From: Rubrivirga marina | Lineage (GTDB): Bacteria > Bacteroidota > Rhodothermia > Rhodothermales > Rubricoccaceae | Assembly: GCF_002283365.1 (NCBI RefSeq) | Contig: NZ_MQWD01000001.1 | Span: 2,823,749 to 2,887,748 of the forward strand | Reading direction: 5' to 3' | DNA: 64,000 bases | Part shown: positions 7,504-21,577 of the stretch, in pieces | Layout of the letters: each line of letters opens with the position of its first letter | Position numbering within the stretch: position 1 is the stretch's first letter | Position numbers and translations under genes: made by a program | The notes under the pieces: model-generated | Told to the model about the DNA's origin: nothing | What the model saw: the letters and a program-made list of their open reading frames with translations, nothing else | Databases searched by the model: none

Positions 7504-7734
7504 CTATGCGGCAAGCCTGAGCGCTTGCCGTTGGTGGTGCCGGTCATCGTGTGCGACCAGCACGAGGAAGCCATGCGACGCATGCCGCCGTCGCGTGCTG
7601 TAGAGGGTCTCGAGGTAGTCGAAGAGCGCTGACCGGACCTCGGCCTGCGTCTCGAACCGGTGGTCGTGGATGGCCTCCGACTTCAGGGTCACGACCACTC
7701 TATGGTTCTTCTGAATACCCTCCACTTTTCGCAC
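7504..7734 (-). pseudogene. IS3-family transposase (OrfB) C-terminal remnant
   Basis: The frame reads LKSEAIHDHRFETQAEVRS and then LFDYLETLYSTRRRHASHG, which is the end of the IS3 OrfB integrase core (typical form: LK.E..h..rf.t..eA...i..Yie.fYN..R.Hs.lG), including the final catalytic Glu of the DDE triad. Only about 65 residues survive; the D-D part is absent and the first 12 codons of the frame are unrelated. It lies within the 530-bp gap between the restriction-modification gene and the next cassette. The rest of the gap (7243-7467) shows no gene. Confidence 0.8.
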
Positions 7735-9438: not shown

Positions 9439-10548
9439 ATGGCAGGACTCCACAAGGACAAGCGGACGGGGATCTACACCGTCCAGTTCTACGACGCGGA
9501 CCGGTCGCCCAAGAGGAAGCAGGTGTCGACGGGGACGCGCGACTTCCGGACGGCGAGGAGGCTCCACAGGCGGTGGGAGGCGGCGTACGCGGAGGGCCGT
9601 TACGACCCGTGGACCGACCCTCCCCCGGAGGCGACCGAGGCGCGGCTGGTCAGGACTGTGACGACCCCCACGCTGGCTGAGGCTCGCGACGCCTTCCTGC
9701 TCAGCAGGTCCCACCTCGCGTCGAACACGAGGCTGAACTACGAGCGGGTCACGCGCTGGTACGTCGAGCACGCGGGGGGCGATCGGCCCATCGCGACTGT
9801 CAACAGCGACTCGGTCACTACGTGGTTGAACACGCGCGATGTGCGGCCGGTATCGAAGGCGAACTACCTCCGGCACCTCCGGGCGTTCGTCCGGTTCTGC
9901 GTCGAGCGCGGCTGGGCGGCCTCGGACGTCACGGACGACGTGGGGTTGGAGCGAGTGCCACGCCAGTTCCCCAAGGCCCTCCGGCCCGACCAGGTCGAGG
10001 CCGTCGCCGCGTACGCCGAGCGTCACTGTCGGGACGGCGAGGAGCGGTCGGCCGCGTGGGCCGCCCAGTTCGTCCGCCTCGGGGCGGAGACGGCGATGAG
10101 GCGGAACGGGCTCCACCTGAGGTGGGACCACGTCGACCTGGAGCGCGGGCACCTCACGGTGGCCTGTACGGACGCGTTCACGTCGAAGTCCGGGGCCGAG
10201 CGCAGGATCCCGTTGTCGTCGCGGGCCGCCTCTGTGCTCGACGATCTCGGAGGCGGGCGGTCGTCGCCATCGGGGTTGGTCCTGGTCGCGGGGCGGGGGA
10301 GGGGCGTTCACCCCGGGACGTGCAGCAAGACGGTCAAGCGGTTCGCCGTGGCCGCGGGCGTCCCGGACCTCACGCCCCACGTCCTCAGGCACTCGTCCGT
10401 CACGTGGCTGATCGAGAGGGGCGTTCCCGTCCCGGTCGTCCAGCGCTTCGCGGGCCACGCCGACGTCGCGACGACGATGCTCTACTGCTCCGTCGCCGAC
10501 GACGTCGCGGGGGACCGGATCCGGTCGGCGCTGGACGGGCCCGGTTGA
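9439..10548 (+). CDS. Tyrosine recombinase / phage-type integrase
   Basis: A 369-aa protein that should catalyse strand exchange between att sites. An N-terminal DNA-binding arm (VQFYDADRSPKRKQVSTGTR, residues 16-35) and a core-binding domain (about 78-160) precede the catalytic domain. The active site is complete: Arg221 (ETAMRRNG), Lys250 (FTSKSG), His314 and Arg317 (HVLRHSS), His340 (FAGH) and nucleophile Tyr349 (MLYC). ATG 9439 is chosen over an in-frame ATG at 9364 because the extension is arginine-rich filler and GGCGGGAG precedes 9439. It converges on umuC. A fragment of a paralogue lies at 29188-29307. Confidence 0.93.
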   Translation: MAGLHKDKRTGIYTVQFYDADRSPKRKQVSTGTRDFRTARRLHRRWEAAYAEGRYDPWTDPPPEATEARLVRTVTTPTLAEARDAFLLSRSHLASNTRLNYERVTRWYVEHAGGDRPIATVNSDSVTTWLNTRDVRPVSKANYLRHLRAFVRFCVERGWAASDVTDDVGLERVPRQFPKALRPDQVEAVAAYAERHCRDGEERSAAWAAQFVRLGAETAMRRNGLHLRWDHVDLERGHLTVACTDAFTSKSGAERRIPLSSRAASVLDDLGGGRSSPSGLVLVAGRGRGVHPGTCSKTVKRFAVAAGVPDLTPHVLRHSSVTWLIERGVPVPVVQRFAGHADVATTMLYCSVADDVAGDRIRSALDGPG

Positions 10549-10598
10549 GTTGTCCCTCTACGACCGAGGGCGTCTGAGGTCGTCGTGTTATTCGCCCT

Positions 10599-11987
10599 TC
10601 ATGCCCGGACGGCAGCGATCTCTCCCCACCGCGTCGTGTAGCGCGGGCTCATCCGCTCCCTTCGCATCTCCCACTGCGGCGCCCCGGCCGCCCCGTCCCG
10701 CGCCTTTCTGAGCGCGCTCAGCGGTCCCATCGCCGCGAACGCGACGGCCCGCCGCCCGAACCGCCGGTTGCACGCGTCGACCGCGTCCATGAGCCGGCCC
10801 TGCGCCGCCGTCCACTCCGGCGTCCGCTCGTCGGCCCCGAACAGTGCGCCCTGCTCCGTCCCCACCGGCCGGAGTTCATTGAGGATCACGCCGGCCTTCC
10901 GGTACCTGTAGGTCCGGCCCTGCGCGTCGGCCGCGACGAACGCCTCGCCCAGCGCGAGCATCGCGGCCCGGATGAGGTCGGGCGTCCGGGCCGAGGCGAC
11001 CGTCAGGTCGCGCTCGACCCAGCCCGTCCGGTGTGGCCCCTGGCCAAAGCCCTTCGTCGTGCAGAACGCGCCGACCCGGCCGGCCACGAGCCCCTCGCGC
11101 CGGAGCTTCTCCGCCGCCCGCGCCGCGTGCGTCGCCACGGCCTGGCGAACCACGTCGACGTCCTCGACCGGCTCGCCGAAGGAGCGGGAGCGGACCATCG
11201 TCTTCCGCTCGACCGGGCCGTCCCCGTCGCGGACGCACGCCGTCCCCCGGAGCTCGTGGACCGTCCTCAGGAGGACGACGTTGAACCGGCTCCGGATCAC
11301 GGCGTCGGGCGCCCCGGCGAGCTTTGCCGCCGTCGAGAACCCGAGGTCGCGGAGCCGCTGACCCCACCGCCGCCCGACGCCCCACACGTCGCCGACGTCG
11401 AGCGAGGCCAGGAACGCCTCGCGGTCGGGGTGGCCCCAGAGGCAGACGACGGGCTCGCCGCCGGCCTTCAGGAGCGTCCGGGCGTACTCGCTCGCCGCCT
11501 TCGCGAGCGTCTTCGTCTCGGCCACGCTCACGCGGACGGGGACCCCTGTCCACCGGAGCACGCGGCGCCGGATCTCGCGGGCGGTCGCTTCCATGTGCTC
11601 GCGGAGCGCGTCGCCGGTCCGCCCGCCCGTCGGGAGGTGGACGAACGCCTCGTCAATGCTGTAGGGGACGACATGGGGCGAGACGGAGAGGAGCGTGTCC
11701 ATGACCCGCCGGCTCATGTCCCCGTAGAGCGTGTAGTTCGAGCTGTAGACCCGCGCGCCCATGTCGGCCAGCTCGCGTCGGCACTTGAAGAACGGCTCGC
11801 CCATCCGGACCCCGGCGTCCTTCACCTCCTGGCTCCGGGCGATGACGCACCCGTCGTTGTTCGAGAGGACGGCGACGGGGAGGCCGTCGAGCGAGGGGTC
11901 GAAGACCCGCTCGCACGAGACGTAGAACGCGGAGCAGTCGACGAGGGCGACGAGCCGACGGAGCGGGACGACGGACGCTGGGGACAC
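10599..11987 (-). CDS. umuC: Y-family DNA polymerase, UmuC subunit (orphan)
   Basis: A 462-aa error-prone polymerase of the Pol V type, used to copy past DNA lesions. The N-terminus has LVALVDCSAFYVSCERVF with metal-binding Asp17, then SNNDGCVIARSQEVKDAGV, and SIDEAF (Asp112, Glu113) completes the acidic site. Little-finger and C-terminal UmuC regions follow (GWVERDLTVAS, GRTYRYRKAGVIL). I favour GTG 11987 because the fused relative at 19556 begins MSPRRLVAL at the equivalent place; ATG 12077 would add 30 unalignable residues. No intact umuD lies upstream, although UmuC normally needs UmuD'. Every umuD-like sequence in this window is broken. Fragments of this gene recur at 15305, 19500 and 25480. 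Confidence 0.92.
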   Translation of the reverse strand: MSPASVVPLRRLVALVDCSAFYVSCERVFDPSLDGLPVAVLSNNDGCVIARSQEVKDAGVRMGEPFFKCRRELADMGARVYSSNYTLYGDMSRRVMDTLLSVSPHVVPYSIDEAFVHLPTGGRTGDALREHMEATAREIRRRVLRWTGVPVRVSVAETKTLAKAASEYARTLLKAGGEPVVCLWGHPDREAFLASLDVGDVWGVGRRWGQRLRDLGFSTAAKLAGAPDAVIRSRFNVVLLRTVHELRGTACVRDGDGPVERKTMVRSRSFGEPVEDVDVVRQAVATHAARAAEKLRREGLVAGRVGAFCTTKGFGQGPHRTGWVERDLTVASARTPDLIRAAMLALGEAFVAADAQGRTYRYRKAGVILNELRPVGTEQGALFGADERTPEWTAAQGRLMDAVDACNRRFGRRAVAFAAMGPLSALRKARDGAAGAPQWEMRRERMSPRYTTRWGEIAAVRA

Positions 11988-12087
11988 GAGGCGGGTCGGT
12001 GGAACTGGGAAAGAGGCTCCCCGCCCTGCCAACCCCCGTGTCACCGGCCCCGTCGGCGCCCGATGCGACGACCTCACAGTCGCCCCC

Positions 12088-15304: not shown

Positions 15305-15449
15305 CCGGAGCTCGCGGAGGACGACGCCGGCCTGGCCGGCCCCGATCGCCGGCCGCGACGAACGCCTCGCCCAACGCGAGCATCGCGGCCCGGATGAGGT
15401 CGGGCGTCAGGGCCGAGGCGACCGCGAGATCGCGTTCGACCCACCCCAA
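15305..15449 (-). pseudogene. umuC: umuC C-terminal fragment
   Basis: GWVERDLAVASALTPDLIRA, continuing AMLALGEAFVAAG, matches the intact UmuC nearly residue for residue (GWVERDLTVASARTPDLIRA). At DNA level the match continues with small gaps to about 15305 (CGGAGCTCGCGGAGGACG against the intact CGGAGTTCATTGAGGATC). Both ends are cut off abruptly. About 48 codons remain. Confidence 0.8.
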
Positions 15450-15823: not shown

Positions 15824-16375
15824 ATGACCCACCGACTCGACCGCTTCGCCCGCGCGCTCGGCGCCTCCGAGCAGAGCGTGACCCGCGCCCTCCCGGGCGT
15901 CCTCGGTGCCTGGCTCAGCCTCACTCCCGAGCCGGCCGTGGCCGCGCCCGCCCTTACCTGCGAGCCCGTTCCTGCCGACGGCCATTGCCCCCCGACGCGG
16001 CTCAAGCAGGGCAAGCCGGGCAACGTCCCGACGCACAACGGCTGCGGCGCCGAGGGCGGCTCGATCCCGGTCCCGCAAGGGTTCGGGAGCGCCGCCTTCA
16101 CGCCCGCCTGCAACCAGCACGACCACTGCTACGAGAACTGCTCGATGTCGCAGGCCGAGTGCGACGACGACTTCTTCGGCGGGATGGTCCACTCGTGCGA
16201 GCAGGCATACGCCGGCACGCTCCACACGCTCACACGCGGGTGGTGCATGAACACGGCCGTGGCCTACTGGCAGGCCGTCGCGCAGGGCGGGGCGCCCGCG
16301 TGGGCCGCCGCTCAGGTCAAGGCCTGCGAGTGCTGCGAGGGCGGCGGCTGCGGCCGCGAGTCCGGCCGCTGCTGA
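15824..16375 (+). CDS. Secreted phospholipase A2-like protein, cysteine-rich
   Basis: A 183-aa exported protein likely to hydrolyse the sn-2 ester of phospholipids outside the cytoplasm. The PLA2 active-site signature is clear: ACNQHDHCYENC with His99 and Asp100, framed by paired cysteines. It has 14 cysteines after residue 45, implying up to seven disulfides. The N-terminus (MTHRLDRFARALGAS, then VLGAWLSLTPEPAVAA) resembles the leader of the third gene (MTTRLDTLARTLGAS) but lacks its twin arginine. ATG 15824 is chosen because it begins this leader. It is the first gene of a tight operon, 11 bp before a MauE/thioredoxin protein that probably forms its disulfides. The calcium-binding loop is not obvious, so activity is unproven. 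Confidence 0.82.
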   Translation: MTHRLDRFARALGASEQSVTRALPGVLGAWLSLTPEPAVAAPALTCEPVPADGHCPPTRLKQGKPGNVPTHNGCGAEGGSIPVPQGFGSAAFTPACNQHDHCYENCSMSQAECDDDFFGGMVHSCEQAYAGTLHTLTRGWCMNTAVAYWQAVAQGGAPAWAAAQVKACECCEGGGCGRESGRC

Positions 16376-16386
16376 GCCCCACGCCC

Positions 16387-17844
16387 ATGCCGACGCTCCT
16401 CGTCCTCGCACGGCTGGCCCTCGCCGCCGTCTTCCTCGTGGCCGGCCTCGCCAAGCTCGCCGACGTCGCCGGCTCGCGCCGCGCCCTCCGCGGCTTCGGC
16501 GTACCCGCGCTGCTGGCGGCCCCGCTCGGCGTCGCCCTCCCGCTCGTGGAGGTGGTCGTGGCCGTCCTCCTGCTGCCGGCGTCGACCGCGGGGGCCGCGG
16601 CGACGGCCGCGCTCGGCCTCCTGCTCGTGTTCTCGGTCGGGATCGGCGCCGCCCTCCTCCGGGGGCAAGCGCCCGACTGCCACTGCTTCGGCCAGTTCCA
16701 CTCGCGCCCGGCCGGGCCGGCCACGCTGGTGCGGAACCTGGCGCTGGCGGCCCTGGCCGGGGGCGTCGCCGCGGCCGCTCTGAACGGGTCGGCAGGACCG
16801 GGCGCGCTCGCCTGGGTCGCTCGCCTGCCGATCGCGACGCCCACGGGCGTGCTGGCCCTCGCCGGGGTCGGGGTGGCCGGGGGGCTGACGTGGGGGCTCC
16901 TCGGGCTCCTCCGCCAGAACGGCCGGCTCATGCTCCGCGTCGAGGCGCTAGAGGCCCGGCTCGGCACCTCCGGGGGCCCGGCCGCCGTCGGCGCCTCGGC
17001 CCCGTCCTTCCGGTTGCCCGCGCTCGACGGCGCCGACGTCTCTCTGGGCGACGTGCTCTCGGGAGACCGGCCGGCGCTCCTCGTCTTCTCCGACCCCGGC
17101 TGCGGCCCGTGCCGGGCGCTCCTCCCCGAGGTCGGCCGGTGGCAGCGTGAGCACGCCGGCCGGTGGACGACCGTCGTGGTGAGCCGCGGGAGCGCCGAGG
17201 CGAACGCGGCCGAGGCCGCCAGGCACGGGCTGGACCGCGTCCTCCGCCAGCGGGACCGCGAGGTGGCCGAGGCCTACGACTGCCACGGCACGCCCGGCGC
17301 CGTCCTCGTCGACGCGCAAGGCCGGGTCGCGAGTCCGGTCCTGGAAGGGGCCGACGCGATCCGGGCGTGGGTGACGCAGGCTGCCCTCGGCCGCGCGCTG
17401 TCCGAGGCCGCCGCTCCGGTGCCCGCCGGGCTCCCCGTCGGCGCGCCGGCCCCCGGGGTCCGGCTCCCGATGGTCGACGGGCCTGACGTCGCCCTCGCCG
17501 ACCTCCGCGGCGCCGAGGCCGTCCTCGTCTTCTGGAACCCCCGCTGCGGTTACTGCCAGCGGATGCTCCCCGACCTCCGGGCCCTCGAGGCCGACCTCGC
17601 GTCCGACCCCCACGCGCCGCGGCTCCTCGTCGTCACCTCCGGGACGGCCGAGGACGCCCGGGCCCTCGACCTCCGCTCGCCCGTCCTCCTCGACTCCGCC
17701 TTCGCCGCGGGGCGCGCGTTCGGCGCCAGCGGCACGCCGTCCGCCGTCCGGATCGGCGCGGACGGCCGTGTCGCCTCGGCCGTCGCCGTCGGCGCGCCAG
17801 CCGTGCTCGCTCTGGCCGCTGGTAGAACCGAACCCGCCCTCTAG
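16387..17844 (+). CDS. MauE/DoxX-like membrane protein fused to two thioredoxin domains
   Basis: A 485-aa membrane thiol-disulfide protein. Residues 1-135 are a MauE-type four-helix membrane domain with its typical CHCFG (Cys98, Cys100), followed by one more helix (about 155-175). Then come two thioredoxin/TlpA-like folds: the first with CGPC (Cys239, Cys242) and cis-Pro in GTPGA; the second with CGYC (Cys387, Cys390) and GTPSA. In methylamine utilisation MauE and MauD help form the disulfides of the small dehydrogenase subunit; here both roles seem fused, with a duplicated thioredoxin. It sits between two cysteine-rich exported proteins (gaps 11 and 7 bp), its likely substrates. No methylamine dehydrogenase gene is present. 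Confidence 0.88.
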   Translation: MPTLLVLARLALAAVFLVAGLAKLADVAGSRRALRGFGVPALLAAPLGVALPLVEVVVAVLLLPASTAGAAATAALGLLLVFSVGIGAALLRGQAPDCHCFGQFHSRPAGPATLVRNLALAALAGGVAAAALNGSAGPGALAWVARLPIATPTGVLALAGVGVAGGLTWGLLGLLRQNGRLMLRVEALEARLGTSGGPAAVGASAPSFRLPALDGADVSLGDVLSGDRPALLVFSDPGCGPCRALLPEVGRWQREHAGRWTTVVVSRGSAEANAAEAARHGLDRVLRQRDREVAEAYDCHGTPGAVLVDAQGRVASPVLEGADAIRAWVTQAALGRALSEAAAPVPAGLPVGAPAPGVRLPMVDGPDVALADLRGAEAVLVFWNPRCGYCQRMLPDLRALEADLASDPHAPRLLVVTSGTAEDARALDLRSPVLLDSAFAAGRAFGASGTPSAVRIGADGRVASAVAVGAPAVLALAAGRTEPAL

Positions 17845-17851
17845 CCCTGCC

Positions 17852-18889
17852 ATGACCACCCGCCTCGACACCCTGGCCCGGACCCTCGGCGCCTCGACCT
17901 CCCGCCGCGACGCCCTCCGCGCGCTCGGCGCCTTCGCTGCCACGACGGCCCTCTCATTCGCCGGGACGGGCTTCGCCAGCCCACGGACCGCGGACCGCGC
18001 CCCGGTCTCGGTCCGCACGGGCGGAGCCTGCGTCGGGTCTCCCGTCCCCGGTCTCCCGGAGTTCTGCTCCAACAGCTCGAACTGCCTCTGCATGGACACG
18101 CCGGAAGGCGCGTACGCCTGCGCCGAGCTCCCGTTCGACGTCTCCTTCTGTGAGGCCCCGACCTGCGCGTCGAGCGCCGACTGCGCCGGCCTCGGCCCCG
18201 CCTACTTCTGCGGGAGCCCGGGGGACGAGTTCTGCGACGACGGCCTCGCCCGGTGCGTGGCGCCCTGCGGCCTCCTCGATTGGGCCGGCACGTGGGCCGG
18301 GGTGTCCGTGCTGGGCGGCGAGCGGCTCGACGTCCAGTTCGAGATCGCCGACGTCGAGGACGCTTTGACCGGCCGGCTCGCGGTGGCCGACCCCGTGACC
18401 GGGGCCTGGGTCGATCTCGGGACGCTCTCGGGGTACCACTACAGCACCTGGGGCTCGTGGACCATGGCGACGGGCCTCTCCGTCGCGGGCGAGTTCTCCA
18501 ATGGCGCGTTCGCAGGGACGCTCGCGTTCCCGGCCGTCGGGTCGTCGGCCGCGTTCGTTGCCAACGTGACGCTGGAGAAGGTGGGCGGACCGGTCGGGGA
18601 CGAGCCGAGCCCGCCGGGGAGCCGTGCCGTCGAGCTGGGGGCGCCCTACCCGAACCCCGCCCGGAACGGCGCGGCCGTCACGGTCCCGCTCCGCGTGGCC
18701 GAGCCGGGCGCGGTCCGCGTTGCCGTGTTCGACGTGGTCGGCCGCGAGGTCGCCGTGCTCCACGATGGCCCCGCCGCGGCAGGCGACCTCCGGCTCACCG
18801 TCGACACGCCGCTGGCGGCTGGGGTCTATGTCGTCCGCGCGACGACGGGCGCTGCGGCCGTGACACGCACGCTCACCGTCGTGCGCTAA
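17852..18889 (+). CDS. Tat-exported, cysteine-rich protein with T9SS sorting domain
   Basis: A 345-aa exported protein. The leader has a twin-arginine motif (TSRRDALRALGAF, Arg18-Arg19) and a hydrophobic core ending FASP, so export through Tat is likely. Residues about 55-150 hold 12 cysteines (SNCLCM, SADCAGLGPAYFCG, EFCDDGLARCVAPCG). A beta-rich domain of unknown role follows (about 155-260). The last 80 residues (LGAPYPNPARNGAAVTVPL to VTRTLTVVR) are a T9SS type A sorting domain that directs passage through the outer membrane. Combining a Tat leader with T9SS sorting is unusual and would allow folding or disulfide formation first. Third gene of the operon. Confidence 0.85.
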   Translation: MTTRLDTLARTLGASTSRRDALRALGAFAATTALSFAGTGFASPRTADRAPVSVRTGGACVGSPVPGLPEFCSNSSNCLCMDTPEGAYACAELPFDVSFCEAPTCASSADCAGLGPAYFCGSPGDEFCDDGLARCVAPCGLLDWAGTWAGVSVLGGERLDVQFEIADVEDALTGRLAVADPVTGAWVDLGTLSGYHYSTWGSWTMATGLSVAGEFSNGAFAGTLAFPAVGSSAAFVANVTLEKVGGPVGDEPSPPGSRAVELGAPYPNPARNGAAVTVPLRVAEPGAVRVAVFDVVGREVAVLHDGPAAAGDLRLTVDTPLAAGVYVVRATTGAAAVTRTLTVVR

Positions 18890-19265: not shown

Positions 19266-19556
19266 CTAAGCTGCCACACGCCGGAGGCCCCTCCCTACAG
19301 GCAAGTGGAACCCGACGTGGCTTGCGACCACGCCCCACACGTCGATGTCCTGCCCGTCGAGGAGCTCGATCGGCCCGTGGTCCGGGGTCGCCGCGAGGAG
19401 CACGACCCGCTCGCCGCGCCGGACGTACTGCTTGACGGTCAGCTCGCCGTCGACAGCCGCCACGACGATCATCCCCGACTCGGGCCCTACAGCTCGGTCG
19501 ACGACGACGTAAAACGCGGAGCCGTCGGCGAGGGCGACGAGACGGCGGGGAGACAT
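19266..19556 (-). CDS. Chimeric UmuC-start/UmuD-C-terminus protein (likely non-functional)
   Basis: A 96-aa open frame. Residues 1-17 (MSPRRLVALADGSAFYV) match the first residues of UmuC. From FYVVVDRAVGPESG onward it is the C-terminal two thirds of UmuD: VVAAVDGELTVKQYVRR with the catalytic Lys, then TPDHGPIELLDGQDIDVWGV and a GFHLPVGRGLRRVAA tail. The UmuD cleavage site and catalytic Ser are missing, so it cannot self-process, and UmuC's metal ligand region is incomplete. The join falls where the two proteins share a short FYV/VVD-like string, which suggests recombination or deletion between adjacent umuC and umuD copies. It remains open over its full length, so it may be expressed. Confidence 0.65.
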   Translation of the reverse strand: MSPRRLVALADGSAFYVVVDRAVGPESGMIVVAAVDGELTVKQYVRRGERVVLLAATPDHGPIELLDGQDIDVWGVVASHVGFHLPVGRGLRRVAA

Positions 19557-19633
19557 AGGACGAGGGGAGGGACCAGGGGGGCGCCTCGTGTCGCCCGCCC
19601 TGTCACACCCGCCGGGCCCGCCCGCCTCTGGGC

Positions 19634-21577
19634 CTACGGGACGGGGAGCCGGACGGCGAACGTGGCCCGGCCAGGGGCCGAGTCCAACAGGACGAGGTCG
19701 CCCCCGTGCCCCTGGACCACCGTCTCCCACGCCATCGAGAGCCCGAGGCCGGTCCCCTCGCCCGTCGGCTTCGTCGTGTAGAACGGCTCGAACGCCCGGG
19801 CCCGGGCCTCCTCCGAGAGCCCGCCGCCGTTGTCCTCGACGACGACCTCGACGACGGCCCCGTCCCGTCGCGTGAGGACCGTCACGGCCGGGCGGTACCC
19901 CTCGCCCTCGGCCGCACACCGGGCGGCCACGGCGTACAGCGCGTTCTCGACGAGGCCCGCGACGGCCCGGCCGAGGTCCTCGGGGACCGCCTGCAGAGGG
20001 GGGACGTCGGGGCCCAGGACCAAGGCCACCTCCGCGGCCGGACTCCCCGCCGCGAGCCGGGCCTGCCGCGTCGCCTCGACCGTCAGCCGGAGGAGGGCGT
20101 GGACGTCGACCGTCCGCCGGTCGCCGGGGCCGCTCCGGGCGTGGGACATCATCGACCGGACGATCCCGTCGGCCCGGCGCCCGTGCTCGGCGATCTTGGC
20201 GAGGTTGGCCCCGAGCGTGTCGAGGTCCTCGACCAGTGGGTCTGGGAGGCCCCCGCCGAGCGCGTCGGCCACGGCGTCGTGGACGTCCGAGACGAGGTCG
20301 ACCGAGAGGTCGGCGAAGTTCGTCACGAAGTTCAGCGGGTTCTTGAGCTCGTGGGCCACGCCGGCCGTGAGCCGCCCGAGCGACGCGAGCTTCTCGGACT
20401 GGACGAGCCGGGCCTGCGCCCGGTGGACCTCGGCGAGGGCGGCCTCCAGCTCGTCGTTCTTCCGCCCCATCTCGTCGGAGTGGCGCCGGGCCCGCTCGGC
20501 GTCGTCGAGCGCGCGCTCGGCGGCGTGGCGGGCCGAGAGGGCCTCCAGGCGGGCCGCCATCTCTTGGCCGAGGATGTCCTCTCGGACCGCCTCGTTCCGG
20601 CGGAGGTGGCGGAGCGCGTGGCCCATCCGCCCGAGCGTCTCGTACGCCTCGGCGAGGGCGACGTGGGCCTGGCTGGCCCGGAGCTTGGCCCCGACGGCCT
20701 CGGCCAACTCCAGCGCCCGCTCCATCGTCTCGACGGCCTCCTTCGGCTTTCCCAGCGCGCGGAGGGCCCGGCCGATGTCCAGGAGGCTCTCGCACTCGTC
20801 TGGGCGGAGGCCGGCGCCCCGGCGGAGGTCAAGCGCCACGCGGTGGAGGAGAAGCGCGTCGCGGGGGGCGCCCTCGGCCTGGGCGAGGACGGCGAGCGCG
20901 TGGAGCGCCTGGGCCTCCGTCGCCACGTCGCCGGCCCCGCGGGCCATCGCGAGCCCCCGCTCGTGGTGGCCCTTCGCCTCGGCGTACCGGCCGAGGTCGC
21001 AGAGGGCCGTCCCGACGGCGACGTGGGCCCGGGCCTGTCCTCCAGCGATCCCGAGGCGGTCGAACAGCGCCAACGCCTCATGCCCGAACCGGAGCCCGTC
21101 GCGGGGCGCGTCGAGGTCGGTCGCGGCCCCGCTCAGCCCGATGAGGGCCCACGCCTCTTGGAGCGCGTCGCCGTCGGCGCGGACCCGGTCGAGGAGGGCC
21201 TGGAGGACCCGGAGGACCTCCTCGAAGTTGCCGAGGTCCCGGTGGGCCCACGCGAGCCCCTGCTGGACCCACCGGTCGAGCTCCAGTGGGAGGAGGTCCC
21301 GATCGCGCTCGGCGTCGAGGAGGAGGTGGAGCGCCCCGAGCGGGTCGGCGTGGAGGAGCCGGGCGTACCCGGCGAGGGCCGTCGCGAACGCCCGCCCCGG
21401 GGCGTACCCCAGCCGGCCGGCCAGAGCGAGCGACTCCCGGGCGAGCCCCTCGATCCGGTCGGCCTCGCCCGGCCCGAGCCCGTGGGCCAGCGCGTTGAGC
21501 GCGTCCACGCGGGCCGAGCTCGCCTCGCCCTCCAGGGCAGCGACGCGGGCTTCGAGGTCGGGGACCGGGTCGGTCAT
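19634..21577 (-). CDS. Cytosolic TPR-sensor histidine kinase
   Basis: A 647-aa protein. The N-terminal 350 residues are TPR-like helical repeats (ESLLDIGRALRALGKPKEAV, VALAEAYETLGRMGHALRHL). A coiled coil (about 350-400) leads to an H-box VAHELKNPLNF and a HATPase domain (VENALYAV, VEDNGGGLSEEA, GEGTGLGLSM). It lacks membrane segments and signal peptide, so it should sense a cytosolic signal through protein contacts. ATG 21577 is preferred; an in-frame ATG 60 bp upstream would run through the palindrome at 21630-21648. No response regulator lies beside it, so its partner is elsewhere. It is divergent from the DUF72 gene. Confidence 0.88.
   Translation of the reverse strand: MTDPVPDLEARVAALEGEASSARVDALNALAHGLGPGEADRIEGLARESLALAGRLGYAPGRAFATALAGYARLLHADPLGALHLLLDAERDRDLLPLELDRWVQQGLAWAHRDLGNFEEVLRVLQALLDRVRADGDALQEAWALIGLSGAATDLDAPRDGLRFGHEALALFDRLGIAGGQARAHVAVGTALCDLGRYAEAKGHHERGLAMARGAGDVATEAQALHALAVLAQAEGAPRDALLLHRVALDLRRGAGLRPDECESLLDIGRALRALGKPKEAVETMERALELAEAVGAKLRASQAHVALAEAYETLGRMGHALRHLRRNEAVREDILGQEMAARLEALSARHAAERALDDAERARRHSDEMGRKNDELEAALAEVHRAQARLVQSEKLASLGRLTAGVAHELKNPLNFVTNFADLSVDLVSDVHDAVADALGGGLPDPLVEDLDTLGANLAKIAEHGRRADGIVRSMMSHARSGPGDRRTVDVHALLRLTVEATRQARLAAGSPAAEVALVLGPDVPPLQAVPEDLGRAVAGLVENALYAVAARCAAEGEGYRPAVTVLTRRDGAVVEVVVEDNGGGLSEEARARAFEPFYTTKPTGEGTGLGLSMAWETVVQGHGGDLVLLDSAPGRATFAVRLPVP

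Follow-up and report, generated by a model that had tools for sequence, protein, structure and literature searches.

A MauE protein fused to two thioredoxin domains, encoded between cysteine-rich proteins in Rubrivirga marina: a probable disulfide-maturation module

Three genes at 15824-18889 of a 64,000-nucleotide stretch of the Rubrivirga marina genome (contig NZ_MQWD01000001.1; the window is this whole stretch) form an operon on the plus strand, in which a membrane protein that joins a MauE domain to two thioredoxin (Trx) domains (gene 2) lies between a protein resembling group-XII phospholipase A2 (PLA2; gene 1) and a cysteine-rich exported protein with a twin-arginine (RR) leader (gene 3), the intergenic gaps being 11 and 7 bp. 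The first-pass annotation of this DNA had described the genes, gaps, domains and Cys counts in this way, and all of them were found again. The operon is probably a dedicated disulfide-maturation module encoded together with its clients, in which a MauE-MauD unit has been fused and extended. More generally, MauE-Trx proteins and their Cys-rich exported partners look like a real, recurrent and functionally coherent folding system that has been little studied.

One line of evidence for this is linkage. An automatic rule was used in which a client is an open reading frame (ORF) within 500 bp that has an RR leader and, in its mature part, at least 6 Cys and 3.5% Cys. Such a client was found in 19 of 79 non-redundant loci, compared to a total of 4 such ORFs in the DNA further away, which is a rate ratio of 11.5 (p=1.7e-7); repeated pairing with Cys-rich exported proteins was what the first-pass annotation had set as its main test. 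The Cys threshold was eased from 4% to 3.5% once the 3.9% of the window was known and therefore the window is not an independent case in this count; without it, 18 of 78 loci have a client. Among the controls, generic thioredoxin loci had none (0 of 29) and Bacteroidota MauE loci had one (1 of 30), and the rule picked a client in all 11 canonical MauD loci, every one of them being MauA. Several of the 19 loci are close kin (three from Caballeronia, two pairs from Thermomicrobia and one pair from the class of Conexibacter) and so they represent about 13 separate lineages. The rule also misses cases that were found by eye, namely, L074 and L076, with 56 and 55 Cys in upstream clients, and L159 and L184. 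Chance adjacency was rejected on the basis of the linkage enrichment and the control loci, and since the arrangement is seen again in unrelated phyla the operon is far beyond chance.

The same pair of genes is present in Conexibacter sp. CPCC 205762 (L086), where a PLA2-XII gene with a leader of the twin-arginine translocation (Tat) type lies 10 bp upstream of a MauE-Trx gene. This client matches the Pfam profile PF06951 with an E-value of 1.7e-5 and is 37% identical to gene 1 (E 7e-20). In the tree, the MauE-Trx protein of the window is sister to that of Conexibacter (96/53) and both are inside a supported clade (98/88) whose other identified members are all Actinomycetota. This sister relation to a protein with the same PLA2 partner suggests, as the simplest reading, that the operon was acquired by horizontal transfer. 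In four Streptomyces loci a single ORF encodes MauE, Trx, an internal RR-hydrophobic segment and a Cys-rich domain, and the last of these is a relative of the client that Caballeronia has as a separate protein (pairwise E 6e-4), their alignment having 35 invariant columns of which many are Cys.

A species-level scan of 84,980 genomes yielded 26 loci, labelled as Thermomicrobiales, Chloroflexi, Deltaproteobacteria/Myxococcota, Actinobacteria, Gemmatimonadetes, Acidobacteria, Alpha- and Betaproteobacteria, Planctomycetes and Verrucomicrobia, and client pairing of this kind is found again in nine or more other bacterial groups. Further genome searches found relatives in 9 of 199 genomes from the class to which Conexibacter belongs, in 31 of 150 from that of Thermomicrobiales, in 14 of 199 from Acidobacteriota and in 1 of 148 from the phylum of L068. 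In some relatives MauE is joined to between one and four Trx domains; others have a lone membrane helix, joined to one or two Trx domains or, in L108, to three. In Caballeronia, reached via plasmid matches that also pointed to the single-ORF arrangement of Streptomyces, a Trx-Trx gene is followed after 63 bp by a gene for a Cys-rich protein with a Tat leader. In L068 the next gene, 17 bp beyond MauE-Trx-Trx on its downstream side, belongs to the TatA family (7515-7715; PF02416, 62 bits), an export context that supports the maturation proposal. In the Thermomicrobia loci L102 (3100-11260) and L204, several tandem genes for Cys-containing proteins with RR leaders surround a pair of Trx genes, only one of which includes MauE. 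The Bacteroidota MauE proteins of about 500 aa were rejected as instances of this architecture, as those that were read have a different C-terminal domain without CxxC; in L032, L043 and L058 this domain is about 350 aa long and marks a different family.

Gene 2 matches the MauE profile PF07291 at 89.3 bits (cut-off 27), and its MauE part is followed by two AhpC-TSA/Redoxin domains with CGPC and then CGYC. The MauE CxC is kept in 65 of 65 homologues and, in a motif survey of the relatives, the first Trx site is mostly CGPC and the later ones mostly CGFC or CGYC. Against the MauD equivalog model TIGR02661, gene 2 scored 71 bits over residues 167-316, which is below the cut-off of 188.6; this model was matched by 22 of 22 fused relatives at E of 0.001 or less, matches for which no cut-off was reported. 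The methylamine dehydrogenase (MADH) light-chain profile PF02975 had no match in genes 1 and 3 but was present in the canonical mau locus L223. Because there is no MADH light chain and the MauD cut-off is not reached, the module is not a mau system but a variant of the MauE/MauD maturation system with other clients. The resemblance to mauE-mauD-mauA is close in that MauE has a CxC, MauD is a membrane helix with Trx and, in L223, the Cys-rich client with a long SRR leader is encoded directly downstream. The differences are that here MauE and MauD are fused, that one to three Trx domains are added, and that the clients are PLA2-like, STIG1-like or other Cys-rich proteins instead of the MADH light chain, the operon of the window having no MauA. 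The mauE/mauD analogy and the fusion that were drawn from the sequence at first are supported. The claim made with them, that no system of this kind had been described, is too strong, as mau is a direct model and Streptomyces clusters of MauE genes with Cys-rich precursors were listed in 2020, according to the passages of PMC7794033 that were available.

Gene 1 matches the PLA2G12 profile PF06951 at 39.3 bits (cut-off 34) and has an HD dyad in CNQHDHCYENC, which makes it a putative phospholipase. Genes 1 and 3 start with versions of one leader. That of gene 3 is MTTRLDTLARTLGASTSRRDALRAL, and it has an RR motif (SRRDAL) with a hydrophobic segment as expected for Tat, whereas in gene 1 the RR pair is lost. 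The TAT_signal profile PF10518 had no match in either gene at E 1, and in other clients its matches were weak and sub-threshold. A hidden Markov model (HMM) of the leader, built from 15 clients with the window excluded, scored 43.6 bits on gene 3, where shuffles of the n-region reached at most 32.2, and 16.2 bits on gene 1, where shuffles reached at most 10.6, despite the missing RR. On the MauA leaders of canonical mau loci it scored up to 27.7 bits; 3 of 8 were above every shuffle and 2 more were above all but a few. By these scores the clients have a common long leader which is, more weakly, akin to that of MauA. The clients are about 116-516 aa long, have up to 74 Cys, and include recognisable folds (PLA2, STIG1-like) behind Tat-type leaders. 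STIG1-like domains (PF04885), a name that otherwise refers to proteins of the plant stigma, were seen in three clients from different phyla (L075, L079 and L185), and the L078 client was rejected as a PLA2 for want of similarity.

Gene 3 also ends in a type A sorting domain of the type IX secretion system (T9SS), scoring 28.8 bits against TIGR04183 (cut-off 23; 32.4 bits in the genome search) and 22.4 bits against the Pfam model PF18962, which is under its cut-off of 27. No such tail was found in gene 1 or in those clients of the relatives that were scanned, and the host genome has 127 of them, and for these two reasons the tail on gene 3 is a local add-on. A lineage-specific folding line for T9SS cargo was rejected on the same grounds. 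Of the original proposal of a disulfide-folding line ahead of T9SS export, therefore, the MauE/MauD-like pairing with Cys-rich exports stands, and the T9SS step does not hold as a general rule.

If the module works as proposed, the two Trx domains would exchange disulfides with the Cys-rich clients, on which electrons would pass from CGYC to CGPC and then to the invariant CxC of MauE, presumably ending at quinone. The clients, made from the same operon and dependent on it for their disulfides, would be brought to the membrane for Tat export by the MauA-type leader, usually with RR, and in this host one of them may then use its T9SS tail to reach the outer membrane.

On which side of the membrane this would take place was read from positive charges. 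The mean number of K+R per loop over 65 MauE homologues was 3.75 in loop 1, 3.29 in the CxC loop and 3.14 in the stalk before Trx, and it was 0.02 at the N-terminus, 0.35 in loop 2 and 0.78 in loop 4, so that the side of CxC and Trx has about 10 K+R versus 1 on the opposite side, with the same bias in 65 of 65 proteins. Single-helix versions with a clear helix have mostly 0 positives before it and 2-5 after it. Canonical MauE and MauD have a similar charge pattern, MauD having no or few positives before its helix and 2-5 behind it. As a control, the VKOR-Trx protein of the host reads as N-in with exported Trx, as expected. The order Trx, RR-hydrophobic segment, Cys-rich domain in the Streptomyces fusion places Trx inside and the client outside. 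Because the charge bias, the single-helix versions and this fusion agree, a cytoplasmic Trx is favoured, and together with Tat-type clients it would agree with disulfides being formed ahead of Tat export. Tentatively, and with somewhat less than even confidence, we suggest that MauE/MauD-type machines face the cytoplasm and oxidise Tat clients before export, which would supply Tat with folded, disulfide-rich cargo. That ResA-like folds are extracytoplasmic in known cases argues against this, and so does the periplasmic location that is usually assumed for MauD. As reviewed in PMC6708511, the Tat system of E. coli rejects some cargo lacking cytoplasmic disulfides.

Structure comparisons bear on what the Trx domains do. 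They are closest to ResA, CcmG and Etrx, and this can be explained by a general envelope thiol oxidoreductase of the TlpA, ResA or DsbA/DsbB-replacement type without a dedicated client, whose neighbours are passengers or co-regulated. Several observations weigh in the same direction and against a dedicated module. For about three quarters of the relatives no adjoining client could be detected, and most Thermomicrobia copies with three Trx domains stand alone. Many of the loci are contigs of metagenome-assembled genomes. In Acidobacteriota (Blastocatellia-like; L169, L172, L176 and L177), MauE-Trx-Trx lies in a conserved order between der and tgt-yajC-secD (at about 3.7-9.9 kb, or 1.3-7.7 kb in L177), and this placement suggests a general, housekeeping role close to Sec export rather than a dedicated one. 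We nevertheless regard a general oxidoreductase as unlikely, because Cys-rich ORFs with RR leaders are enriched specifically and are absent beside generic thioredoxins, client and machine are one gene in Streptomyces, the PLA2 partner is the same in another phylum, and the host VKOR-Trx already serves general oxidation. T-cisPro and the ResA-like folds would also fit a reductase, and the module could be a reductase or isomerase that keeps client Cys reduced or repairs wrong disulfides with electrons fed through MauE. The CGPC and ResA-like fold of domain 1 and the CGFC or CGYC of the later sites agree with this, CGYC being the motif of DsbC. But MauE keeps a single CxC and there is no CcdA-like membrane Cys pair, and clients with as many as 74 Cys need net oxidation, which leaves a reducing role improbable and dedicated oxidation the preferred explanation.

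A search of solved structures with the MauE sequence gave no relevant match, and the MauE model (16387-16995) was matched best to the receptor assembly factor NACHO/TMEM35A (9h9e_B; Z 13.2, root-mean-square deviation 2.2 over 115 residues), the next row having Z 7.7; VKOR-like 6wvi gave Z 6.2. NACHO has the same fold as the MauE model but is a eukaryotic receptor chaperone without Trx, and a common fold shows no function; its membrane topology, sought in order to orient MauE, was not stated in the literature passages that were seen. The VKOR-thioredoxin fusions, of which the host has a copy at G000:C1:4164437, likewise join a membrane redox domain to Trx, but here the membrane domain is of the MauE/DoxX type and the charge pattern before Trx is the opposite. 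ResA, TlpA and CcmG share the Trx fold and CxxC, but theirs is an extracytoplasmic Trx with a positive N-flank, whereas here the charges follow the helix.

Full-text literature searches of partial coverage gave no paper in which the fused architecture is described together with Tat clients. In the passages of PMC7794033 that were available, MauE is cited as proposed to form the disulfides of the MADH small subunit (van der Palen 1997), and decRiPPter lists three Streptomyces families of mauE homologues beside precursors with at least 8 Cys as candidate loci for ribosomally synthesised and post-translationally modified peptides (RiPPs). These clusters resemble the module in having a MauE relative beside a Cys-rich product, but they are read there as peptide modification, and the fusion, the Tat leader, the breadth and the PLA2 pairing do not appear in those passages. 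That MauE/MauD relatives modify short Cys-rich precursor peptides here as well is very improbable, as what is exported here are proteins, about 116-516 aa in length, whose folds can be recognised and whose leaders are of the Tat type.

Descriptions of disulfide formation in bacteria mostly concern periplasmic, unfolded clients of Sec, whereas Tat exports folded proteins. How natural disulfide-rich Tat proteins mature is an open question, and a widespread module that lies beside such proteins, and in some cases is fused to them, makes it testable. With a maturation role, a large family whose name refers only to methylamine use would gain a function, and the module could help in the production of disulfide-rich proteins. 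The features of the operon are listed in the table.

Table. Features of the MauE-Trx-Trx operon in the window
Feature	Position	Strand	Basis
Client 1 (gene 1), PLA2 group-XII-like, 183 aa, 14 Cys	15824-16375	+	PF06951 match; Conexibacter homologue
Client 1 leader, residues 1-43	15824-15952	+	Leader HMM, 16.2 bits
PLA2G12 domain, client 1 residues 67-172	16022-16339	+	Pfam PF06951
MauE-Trx-Trx membrane protein (gene 2), 485 aa	16387-17844	+	Domain profiles; AlphaFold model, pLDDT 86.5
MauE domain, residues 1-128; helices 2-25, 41-61, 65-91, 111-132	16387-16770	+	PF07291, 89.3 bits; model pLDDT 90
CxC motif, C98-H99-C100	16678-16686	+	Cys pair invariant in 65 MauE homologues
Fifth membrane helix and positively charged stalk, residues 152-195	16840-16971	+	Model; charge count
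Thioredoxin domain 1, residues 201-315, CGPC at 239-242, ResA/MauD-like	16987-17331	+	Profile; structure match
Thioredoxin domain 2, residues 351-464, CGYC at 387-390	17437-17778	+	Profile
Client 2 (gene 3), exported protein, 345 aa, 12 Cys	17852-18889	+	Profiles
Client 2 twin-arginine leader, residues 1-42, SRRDAL	17852-17977	+	Leader HMM, 43.6 bits
T9SS type A sorting domain, client 2 residues 266-341	18647-18874	+	TIGR04183

The host genome has one MauE match, one TatC and one VKOR protein. No full-length relative of gene 2 was found in the sampled genus and family or in the phylum sample, and the sole other match to gene 1 in 296 genomes of the phylum is weak and interrupted by a stop; thus, the operon is sporadic in this lineage. 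A plasmid search found no relatives of gene 1. Around the operon there is a recombination patch (10096-12077, 15336-15447 and 19266-19700) made up of integrase and S24 (UmuD-like) fragments, a umuC gene and a 112-nt piece of umuC that is 90% identical to 10914-11025.
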